NCBI RefSeq assembly: GCF_007997035.1
Contig: NZ_VOSS01000001.1
Coordinates: 1-64,000, forward strand
Reading direction: 5' to 3'
DNA: 64,000 nt
Source: Ralstonia sp. TCR112
GTDB lineage: Bacteria; Pseudomonadota; Gammaproteobacteria; Burkholderiales; Burkholderiaceae
In this document: positions 31,564 through 33,543 of the stretch, piece after piece
How the letters are laid out: each line of letters begins with the position of its first letter
Numbering within the stretch: position 1 is the stretch's first letter
Translations under genes and position numbers: made by a program
The notes under the pieces: generated by a model
Databases searched by the model: none
What the model was told of the DNA's origin: nothing
What the model saw: only the letters and a program-made list of their open reading frames with translations

Positions 31564-31592
31564 TTGACTTGACTTGGCATCCGTCTTATTCT
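31564..31592 (+). promoter_or_regulatory. Promoter upstream of argD leader
   Basis: TTGACT (31564-31569), 17 bp, TATTCT (31587-31592). The predicted start is at about 31599-31601, essentially at the ATG of the small ORF that follows. Confidence 0.65.
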
Positions 31593-31600
31593 TGCGCCTT

Positions 31601-31672
31601 ATGAACCAAGCCCTGCACCTCCGACGCCGCCGTACGTTGCTCCCCCCGGGAAGCCACGCGGCTGTCTGCTGA
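31601..31672 (+). CDS. Putative arginine-rich leader peptide
   Basis: A 23-codon ORF reading [20 protein letters not shown] then AVC, with four consecutive arginine codons (CGA CGC CGC CGT) at positions 8-11. It starts at the predicted transcription start, so it would be leaderless. A strong terminator begins 33 bases after its stop and the argD-like gene starts beyond. This is the layout of a transcription-attenuation leader whose ribosome stalls when charged tRNA-Arg is scarce. The ORF could also be fortuitous. Nothing shows that it is translated. Confidence 0.4.
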
Positions 31673-31705
31673 TTGCATATCGGGTTCACAGGATTCGACG
31701 ATCAC

Positions 31706-31742
31706 AAGGCCACGGGGCGCCCCCCGTGGCCTTTGTCTTTTT
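31706..31742 (+). terminator. Strong intrinsic terminator or attenuator before argD
   Basis: AAGGCCACGGGG and CCCCGTGGCCTT form a perfect 12-bp stem around CGCC, followed by a T-rich tract (TTTGTCTTTTT). It lies between the promoter at 31564 and the argD start at 31800, so it either attenuates argD or ends a small RNA of about 140 nt. Confidence 0.85.
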
Positions 31743-31799
31743 CCAACGCGCGTTTTTTCGGTTTTTCATCTTCCTGCCGCCTTTTTCTGGAGCTTTGCC

Positions 31800-32987
31800 A
31801 TGGCGTTTGCTGACTACCCCGTCCAGTCCCTGATGTACATCACCAACCGGCCCGAGATCGTCTTCACCGAAGGCAAGGGCTCGTGGCTGACGGACCACAA
31901 CGGCAAGCGATACCTGGACTTCGTGCAAGGCTGGGCCGTCAACTGCCTCGGTCACTGCAACGACGGCATGATCGAAGCGCTGAACGCACAGGCCCGGAAG
32001 CTGATCAACCCGAGCCCGGCGTTCTACAACGAGCCGATGGCCAAGCTGGCCGGCCTGCTGACGGCGCACAGCTGCTTCGACAAGGTGTTCTTCGCCAACA
32101 GCGGCGCCGAAGCCAACGAAGGCGCCATCAAGCTCGCCCGCAAGTGGGGCAAGAAGCATAAGAACGGCGCCTTCCAGATCATCACGTTCGACCACAGCTT
32201 CCACGGCCGCACGCTCGCCACCATGAGCGCATCCGGCAAGGCAGGCTGGGACACCATCTTCGCGCCGCAGGTGCCGGGCTTCCCGAAGGCCATCCTGAAC
32301 GACATCGCCTCGGTCGAGGCGCTCATCACCGACGAGACGGTCGGCGTGATGCTTGAGCCGGTGCAAGGCGAAGGCGGCGTGCTGCCGGCCACGCCGGAAT
32401 TCATGCAGCAACTGCGCGCGCTGACCAAGAAGCACAAGATCCTGTTGATCGTTGATGAAGTGCAGGCCGGGTGCGGCCGCTGCGGCACGCTCTTCGCCTA
32501 CCAGCTCTCGAACATCGAGCCGGACATCATGACGCTGGGCAAGGGCATCGGCGGCGGCGTGCCGCTGTCGGCCCTGCTGTGCACCGATGAAGTTGCGAGC
32601 TTCGAAGCCGGCGACCAGGGCGGCACCTACAACGGCAACCCGCTGATGACGGCCGTTGGCTGCTCGGTGATCGAGCAACTGCTGGCGCCGGGCTTTCTGG
32701 CAGGCGTGGAAGAACGCGGCGCCTATCTGCGCACGCAGCTGCTCAAGCTGAGCGAAGAGTTCGGCCTGGCCGGCGAGCGCGGAAACGGTCTGCTGCGCGC
32801 CCTGCTGCTCGGCAAGGACATCGGCGGCCAACTGGTTGAAGCGGCACGCGAGATGAATCCGACGGGCCTGCTGCTGAACGCCCCGCGTCCGAACATCCTC
32901 CGTTTCATGCCTGCGCTGAATGTGACGACCGAAGAAATCGACACGATGATCGGCATGCTGCGCACGTTGCTGAAGGCGCACGCCTAA
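31800..32987 (+). CDS. argD: Acetylornithine aminotransferase
   Basis: A 395-residue class III PLP aminotransferase that converts N-acetylglutamate semialdehyde and glutamate to N-acetylornithine in arginine synthesis. Signs: [20 protein letters not shown] near residue 98, [14 protein letters not shown] near 135, [14 protein letters not shown] near 216 (PLP-binding Asp), and [16 protein letters not shown] near 244 with the Schiff-base lysine K247. Length and order match ArgD. The leader and terminator upstream suggest amino-acid-dependent regulation. Confidence 0.92.
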
Positions 32988-33066: not shown

Positions 33067-33543
33067 ATGGCCGTGACGCGAGAAGTTCCGGCCACGGGGA
33101 TCGTTTTGTCCGATGATTCCGCGTGGCTTCCGCTGGACCAGATTTACCAGTTCCTCTCACAGGAAACGTATTGGGCCCGCGGCCTGCCGCGCGACGTGTT
33201 CGACCGATCCGTCGCGAACTCGCTGTGCTTTGCCGCCTATCGACGGAACGACGATGGCTCGCATGGCGATCTCGTGGGCTTTGCGCGGGTCATTACCGAC
33301 CGCGCGACGTTTGCGTATCTGTGCGATGTGTTCGTGCTGCCGGCATGGCGTGGGAAAGGCGTCTCGCACGCGCTGATGGATTTTCTGCGTGAGCATCCGG
33401 ACCTGCAGACGCTACGGCGCACAGTGTTAGTGACAACGGGCGCCGACTGGCTTTATCGCAAGCATGGCTTTACCGATGTGCCCGAGGGCATTGGCTTCAT
33501 GCAATTGCATCGGCCGAACATCTACACAGCCACGTCGGCCTGA
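33067..33543 (+). CDS. GNAT-family N-acetyltransferase
   Basis: A 158-residue acetyl-CoA-dependent N-acetyltransferase. The GNAT core is present: FARVITDRATFAYLCDVFVL near residue 76, acetyl-CoA pyrophosphate loop PAWRGKGVSHALMDFL near 97, and WLYRKHGFTDVPEGIGFMQL near 131. It is 79 bp downstream of argD on the same strand. Substrate is unknown. Confidence 0.88.
   Translation: MAVTREVPATGIVLSDDSAWLPLDQIYQFLSQETYWARGLPRDVFDRSVANSLCFAAYRRNDDGSHGDLVGFARVITDRATFAYLCDVFVLPAWRGKGVSHALMDFLREHPDLQTLRRTVLVTTGADWLYRKHGFTDVPEGIGFMQLHRPNIYTATSA

Follow-up and report, generated by a model that had tools for sequence, protein, structure and literature searches.

We propose that argD of Ralstonia sp. TCR112, in the 64,000-nt stretch of DNA analysed here (the window), is probably controlled by a cis-acting, arginine-responsive transcription attenuator with a leaderless leader peptide, and we give this reading a probability of about 0.86. 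It is based on the anatomy of the leader, its conservation, modelled competing pairings that depend on the position of the ribosome, and the lack of an ArgR match in the window's family. From these we infer the start site of the leader, its translation, the stalling of the ribosome and the response to arginine. Regulators of this kind are textbook material, but the use of arginine, the leaderless leader ORF and the spread among Betaproteobacteria are undescribed as far as our open-access search shows, and a description of an arginine leader attenuator at argD was not found in the open-access literature (titles and abstract starts).

In the proposed mechanism, RNA polymerase would start at the AUG or within 1-3 nt of it, and a 70S ribosome could load on the bare 5' end of the leader RNA. 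When charged tRNA-Arg is plentiful, the ribosome would reach the stop codon (31670-31672) and cover region 2. With region 2 covered, region 3 would pair with region 4, resulting in the intrinsic terminator and the release of an RNA of about 140 nt. When charged tRNA-Arg is scarce, the ribosome would stall on the Arg run and leave region 2 free; the free region 2 would then capture region 3 ahead of the synthesis of region 4, letting transcription continue into argD.

Layout of the argD leader and its conservation in close relatives

The earlier note had read a promoter, an ORF of 23 codons containing a run of four for Arg, a perfect terminator hairpin of 12 bp and argD in this part of the window (31564-31800), and all of them were confirmed (Table 1). 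The -10 box was 8 nt away from the ATG at 31601, which places the ATG at about +2 of the predicted start. The terminator stem (AAGGCCACGGGG/CCCCGTGGCCTT) was perfect, with 12 pairs of which 9 were G-C, and was followed by the tail TGTCTTTTT. Against an expectation of 2.3, the scan gave three terminator-like sites, of which the one at 31706-31733 was the sole 12-bp site. Furthermore, the segment 31599-31745 (147 nt) folded with a z of -3.94 compared with shuffles. One promoter-like site was found between 30500 and 33500 (0.5 expected); since it was that at 31564-31592, the scan gives no second argD promoter past the terminator. The idea that a rival promoter after 31742 drives argD, also raised at the outset, thus received no support from the consensus scan. 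The argD protein scored 785.6 bits against NF002985 (cut-off 568), and it was the one match to this family in the window's genome at E<=1e-140. A DNA search of the same genome returned no second copy of the leader element. Possibly, the GNAT-like ORF that follows argD is co-transcribed with it.

Table 1. Features of the argD leader region in the window, and the possible Arg-rich argF leader of other genomes
Feature	Position	Strand	Details and basis
Sigma-70-type promoter	31564..31592	+	-35 TTGACT 31564-31569, 17-nt spacer, -10 TATTCT 31587-31592
Leaderless leader-peptide ORF (predicted), 23 codons	31601..31672	+	stop TGA 31670-31672; counterparts in 80/80 named loci
Control codons CGA CGC CGC CGU (Arg x4)	31622..31633	+	sequence reading and comparison with relatives
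Region 2, predicted antiterminator 5' arm (GCCACGCGGCU)	31653..31663	+	partner 31708-31718; fold of 31640-31721 and comparative tests
Intrinsic terminator hairpin	31706..31733	+	region 3 31706-31717, loop 31718-31721, region 4 31722-31733
Terminator U tract	31734..31742	+	sequence reading and terminator scan
argD, acetylornithine transaminase, gene under proposed control	31800..32987	+	NCBIfam NF002985
GNAT-like acetyltransferase ORF 3' of argD	33067..33543	+	weak NCBIfam N-acetyltransferase matches below cut-off
Possible Arg-rich argF leader	last ~145 nt before argF		loci L160, L186-L191, L193, L194, L196-L207

For comparison, 578 argD relatives in named genomes were ranked by argD similarity and the best 80 were used; these 80 named loci, being chosen in this way, are close relatives of the window and came from Ralstonia, Cupriavidus, Paraburkholderia, Burkholderia sp., Trinickia and MAGs. 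Every one of the 80 loci had a -10 box 7-8 nt 5' of the ATG, a 16-24-residue peptide with an Arg cluster, and an inverted repeat, terminator-like with a T-rich tail, that was followed by argD in the same direction. The Arg cluster was therefore kept in 80/80 loci, which refutes the notion that the ORF and its Arg codons might not be conserved in relatives, an outcome that the earlier note had named as refuting its reading. Together with the window, these loci gave 81 sequences with 56 distinct leader ORFs. Among them the Arg run showed synonymous variants (CGACGCCGCCGT, CGACGTCGCCGC, CGACGTCGACGC and CGACGCCGACGC), and differences in its length were whole codons, as in RRSFR, RRRSFR and RRSFRSFR. 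Outside the Arg run the peptide was weakly constrained, with N/S of 0.46-0.97 by clade-wise counts, and the coding signal was weak as well (23, 20 and 18 variable sites at third, first and second positions, respectively). The leader DNA was also present, with one full-length match each, in 65/65 genomes of the genus of G430, a count made at the DNA level in which codons were not read individually.

Predicted leaderless start, codon choice and modelled competing pairings

Two features go beyond the earlier note, namely the leaderless start as a conserved feature and the predicted antiterminator (31653-31663 with 31708-31718). Both were analysed in a set of 43 leaders: 28 came from the 64 order-level places described below, and the window together with the 80 named loci supplied the other 15. 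The ATGs were picked by eye, so the tests on this set are conditional on a leader being present, and they are not independent because the sampled loci are related. A -10 box (NANNNT) was located 6-8 nt before the ATG in 42/43 leaders and a -35 box with at least 5 of 6 consensus bases was seen in 39/43, the hexamers being the best within a range, which favours them somewhat. A Shine-Dalgarno-like tetramer before the ATG was missing in 41/43. Leaderless transcripts have been documented generally in B. cenocepacia J2315 (PMC4603805). If the predicted start is right, the leader would be a natural case in which 70S ribosomes have to initiate at a bare AUG fast enough for a terminator that, in the window, is about 105 nt away.

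The choice of codons in the Arg clusters was restricted. In the 43 leaders CGC was used 60 times, CGA 48, CGU 23 and CGG once, with AGA/AGG at 0; the corresponding counts in argD, taken from 32 of these loci, were 396 CGC, 68 CGU, 60 CGG, 18 AGG, 14 CGA and 4 AGA. CGA, CGC and CGU, which we take to be decoded by one tRNA-Arg with the anticodon ICG, made up 131/132 of the cluster codons versus 478/560 in the argD genes (Fisher p 3e-7, with codons treated as independent). Ideas on the isoacceptor that reports starvation best can be tested directly with such a bias. CGA opened the Arg cluster in 38/43 leaders, and the CGACG string may also be kept for RNA reasons.

The position of CGA and its enrichment (48/132 cluster codons versus 14/560 in argD) would agree with a general translation-rate sensor in which CGA merely slows ribosomes, and the hairpin could in the same spirit be a constitutive insulating terminator of argD. 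We give hardly any credence to these explanations. A plain terminator needs neither an in-frame Arg run nor an antiterminator, the run stands before an arginine-synthesis gene, and the common codons CGC and CGU make up most of the remaining cluster. The codon choice also bears on another reading, in which the short Arg-rich peptide upstream of an arginine-pathway gene would act by nascent-peptide arrest, with free arginine or ornithine sensed inside the ribosome tunnel as in the fungal AAP or SpeFL/ORF34. However, restricted codons fit tRNA sensing, and the residues outside the Arg cluster were not conserved between families (by eye). Moreover, none of the 4 leader peptides tested gave a Pfam or NCBIfam match at E<=1, and thus none matched DUF2618. 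Arrest by the nascent peptide is consequently considered extremely unlikely.

If the argD leader is an attenuator, region 2, which follows the Arg codons, must be able to pair with region 3, the 5' arm of the terminator. The region 2:3 duplexes of the 43 leaders had a mean z of -1.53 against shuffled region 2, with 18/43 at p<=0.05 and 6/43 at p<=0.01. We also modelled the RNA up to the terminator loop with a ribosome placed on the second Arg codon or on the stop codon. The modelled pairing of region 3 with upstream RNA had a mean of 0.73 with the ribosome on the Arg codon and 0.27 with the ribosome on the stop codon, while the shuffled controls gave 0.52 and 0.39, respectively. The difference between the two states exceeded 0.2 in 37/43 leaders and in 0/43 did it exceed 0.2 in reverse, though L011 and L135 were slightly reversed. 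The pairing picture was the same with footprints of 8, 12 and 16 nt and with two stall codons, and the family mean of the difference was positive in 10 or 11 of 11 labels. In the window, the modelled pairing of region 3 was 0.74 in the stalled state and 0.01 with the ribosome at the stop codon. The window copy alone was not significant (p=0.63 for the 2:3 duplex, p=0.15 for the pairing in the stalled state), so the case for the attenuator is a comparative one. Across the leaders, comparison and in silico folding point to an antiterminator that would compete with the terminator depending on where the ribosome stands.

When no ribosome was placed on the RNA, the mean capture of region 3 was 0.41, which is below the stalled state; for the window it was 0.70, and the model therefore predicts no superattenuation there. 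A region 1:2 hairpin over the Arg codons (GACGCCGC with GCGGCUGUC) looked good by eye. In the duplex test on the 43 leaders it was not above shuffles (mean z -0.23, 3/43 at p<=0.05), and we do not claim it.

Spread across the order and the RF02884 family

The order-level sample contained 399 genomes, of which 63 had an argD of the NF002985 family; this gave 65 places including the window, and the upstream DNA of the remaining 64 was read. An Arg-rich ORF with a terminator was found upstream of argD in 11 family labels, but not in every member. Under a strict rule, in which a terminator near argD is combined with an ATG ORF having at least 3 Arg in 4 codons, the labels were f1, f174, f176, f179, f182, f186, f191, f192, f195 and f206; f210 had a looser leader form alone (L139). 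This conserved layout in 11 family labels supports the arginine attenuator upstream of argD that was suggested from the window's letters.

The strict rule was tested on 67 upstream regions, namely 61/64 order-level places (three near-duplicates were omitted) and 6 others. Of the 38 argD loci bearing a terminator, 26 also had the Arg-rich ATG ORF that the rule asks for, where dinucleotide shuffles expect 2.5. Among the other 12, the Arg-rich ORF was of a looser kind in 8 (L099, L139 and six loci of f176), and in L087, L120, L126 and L131 we could not detect an Arg-rich ORF. In a 2x2 table the counts were 23/35 for loci with a terminator versus 4/29 for loci without one, L107, L108 and L109 being taken as terminator-bearing. 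By the strict rule the combination of ORF and terminator was absent from 11/11 places in f175, 7/8 in f192, 4/4 in f201, and others; in the f201 loci L094 and L133 the Arg ORF was present and no terminator was recognised.

The label g223, within f1, was without the leader combination in 6/6 places. Its members L086, L089, L113, L114, L115 and L117 have small genomes (1.7-2.1 Mb), and no terminator was found near their argD. In L086 and L089, argD is situated closely 3' of a coding region (by eye). These observations suggest that the attenuator was lost along with genome reduction in g223 members.

By eye, leader peptides of different families could be aligned at the Arg cluster alone. The stems of their terminators differed as well, from GCCACGG and GGCCGCA up to GAAGCCGCGC. 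The features that persisted were an AUG 6-8 nt past the -10 box, mostly without a Shine-Dalgarno sequence, a cluster of Arg codons, and a segment able to pair with the 5' arm of the terminator. Seven f176 loci (L104, L105, L142, L143, L145, L146 and L147) had a separate leader type, with Arg codons scattered over an Ala/Arg stretch. They have an Arg-Gly-Ala part in common, the DNA of which (e.g. GGCCGTGGCGCG) can pair with the terminator arm.

Judged by position and sequence, the argD leader is the same element as RF02884 (BcKCsr7), which Rfam lists as type 'Gene; sRNA' with a gathering cut-off of 59 bits; the position of its matches upstream of argD is our own criterion and not Rfam's. The cut-off was passed by 7/12 argD loci in one set and 3/16 in another, with passing matches in the argD leaders of L025, L047, L051, L060, L032, L076, L068, L106, L107 and L085. 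Passing forms belonged to Paraburkholderia, Trinickia and the genus of G430 (69-164 bits), and the tested Ralstonia and Cupriavidus forms were below the cut-off, as was the window with 28.1 bits (E 4.2e-4). A search of 274 genomes from the whole class gave 1 match, L083, which by eye was a terminator 3' of a coding region and not an argD leader. The window's genome was also unmatched under the stricter filters of that search, so the search says little.

The J2315 transcript Bc_KC_sr7 was reportedly named by Ghosh et al. in 2017. According to a review table (PMC10987360), it is identical with RIT34 and nc5U30, lies on chromosome 1 at 2,967,641-2,967,787 (147 nt), was expressed in biofilms, went down in C. 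elegans infection and went up under organic peroxide; arginine is not among these published conditions. The nc5U names appear to denote short 5'UTRs, and RIT34 of J2315 probably lies upstream of argD. Short 5'UTRs in the 2017 J2315 study are said to arise by processing or attenuation (PMC5688073).

A small RNA of about 140 nt had been offered in the earlier note as the alternative to attenuation. That proposal gained a name for the homologue in Rfam and the Burkholderia literature, but an RNA of this size fits the attenuator's terminated product equally, since an attenuator yields a terminated RNA of about 140 nt. For an RNA that acts in trans, with an incidental ORF, speak the Rfam type 'Gene; sRNA', the 7/12 and 3/16 loci above the gathering score and the J2315 transcript RIT34/Bc_KC_sr7, which is listed as expressed and differentially abundant (PMC10987360). 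We nevertheless regard a trans-acting RNA as very unlikely, because the element was upstream of argD and in the same direction in 80/80 named loci (it was sought mainly upstream of argD) and because it is single copy, with no second one in the window's own genome and one full-length match in each of the 65/65 genomes of the G430 genus. In addition, the Arg run varies synonymously and remains in frame while the RNA sequence and stem change between families. BcKCsr7 or Bc_KC_sr7 has been filed as an sRNA, and the available parts of two reports give no function for it (PMC10987360; PMC5688073), whereas we read the argD leader as a cis-attenuator. If this is correct, an Rfam sRNA family without known function would become a cis-regulator with a testable signal.

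Possible arginine control beyond argD and comparison with known systems

We could not find a match to ArgR (PF02863) in the window's genome. Within the window's family, the one family searched and the one for which the absence holds, ArgR was found in 0/100 sampled genomes (some of them very small) versus 8/14 control genomes. This suggests that the attenuator could explain arginine sensing in Betaproteobacteria where no ArgR is found.

Other arginine genes were surveyed in 17 regions upstream of argC, argF and argG from six genomes; for the argC-like loci L153-L155, whose profile match begins within the gene, the survey covered just the final stretch 5' of the start codon. No Arg leader was seen in 16/17 of these regions, and the single Arg-rich ORF was located before argF of G444 (L160). 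In the genus of G444, 22/24 genomes had a pre-argF ORF with at least 3 Arg in 4 codons, and 21 of these ORFs were of one type, MI....LR-K/M-RR-E/K-RR (e.g. MILAVKLRMRRERRLRGALGS). The ORF of this type starts 6 nt past an AATAAT box. An inverted repeat (AAGGCGGCTC ... GAGCCGCCTT, a hairpin by eye) is followed by a T-rich tail that extends into the start codon of argF, and the 5' arm of this repeat overlaps with the RR-E-RRLR codons of the ORF. A ribosome stalled there would sit on the hairpin arm itself. It is possible that Cupriavidus-like genomes have, before argF, a second arginine leader of another build, a lead that comes from sequences of one genus.

The window's genome also has an inverted repeat (AAGGCGGC ... 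GCCGCCTT), again followed by a T-rich tail, in the last ~100 nt before argF (L157), and no Arg ORF there. For G296, we dropped the idea that the argD leader also controls argF, as argF is on contig C5 and the leader-bearing argD on C29. The DNA before argF of G296 (L162), on a separate contig from the leader-bearing argD, resembles by eye the C-terminus of an ArgD-related aminotransferase; perhaps a second argD-like gene adjoins argF in this genome. Downstream of argD in G296 there is also a manganese riboswitch, RF00080 (106.2 bits, L098:2795-2971).

Taking these results jointly, we lean towards a wider reading in which, in ArgR-less Betaproteobacteria, the arginine control of argD would be an old attenuator with a leaderless leader peptide. 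Its Arg run, limited to one isoacceptor (tRNA-Arg ICG) and usually beginning with the rare codon CGA, would be the gauge of a single tRNA; RF02884 would represent the terminated product, which may have an additional role in trans, and the second Arg leader, of another build, would control argF in Cupriavidus-like genomes. If the attenuator is real, leader-peptide attenuation with an intrinsic terminator would extend to arginine as well.

The classical leader-peptide attenuators of proteobacteria are those of the his, trp, leu, ilv, thr and phe operons. Like them, the argD leader combines a short ORF containing codons of the end product, an intrinsic terminator, a predicted competing antiterminator and a pathway gene downstream. 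It differs from them in its proposed sensing of arginine, in an ORF that starts at or next to the predicted 5' end, mostly without a Shine-Dalgarno sequence, and in a competing 1:2 hairpin that was not statistically evident. A similar use of consecutive Arg codons in a short upstream ORF is known from Salmonella orf34-speF, where ribosome pausing sets mRNA folding and expression, as we propose here, and where the arginine response was lost once two Arg codons had been replaced by Lys codons (PMC6386406). However, orf34-speF is a system with Rho-dependent termination, RNase G decay, induction by ornithine, a conserved DUF2618 peptide and a polyamine gene (PMC6386406). The argD leader has instead an intrinsic terminator, little peptide conservation and a gene of arginine synthesis. 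Rfam scans of the window and of the argD leader region gave no T-box match. The fungal AAP is a nascent-chain arrest in eukaryotic translation, and the Arg T-boxes of Firmicutes bind tRNA directly, with no peptide. What the argD leader would have in common with both is arginine control via an upstream leader.
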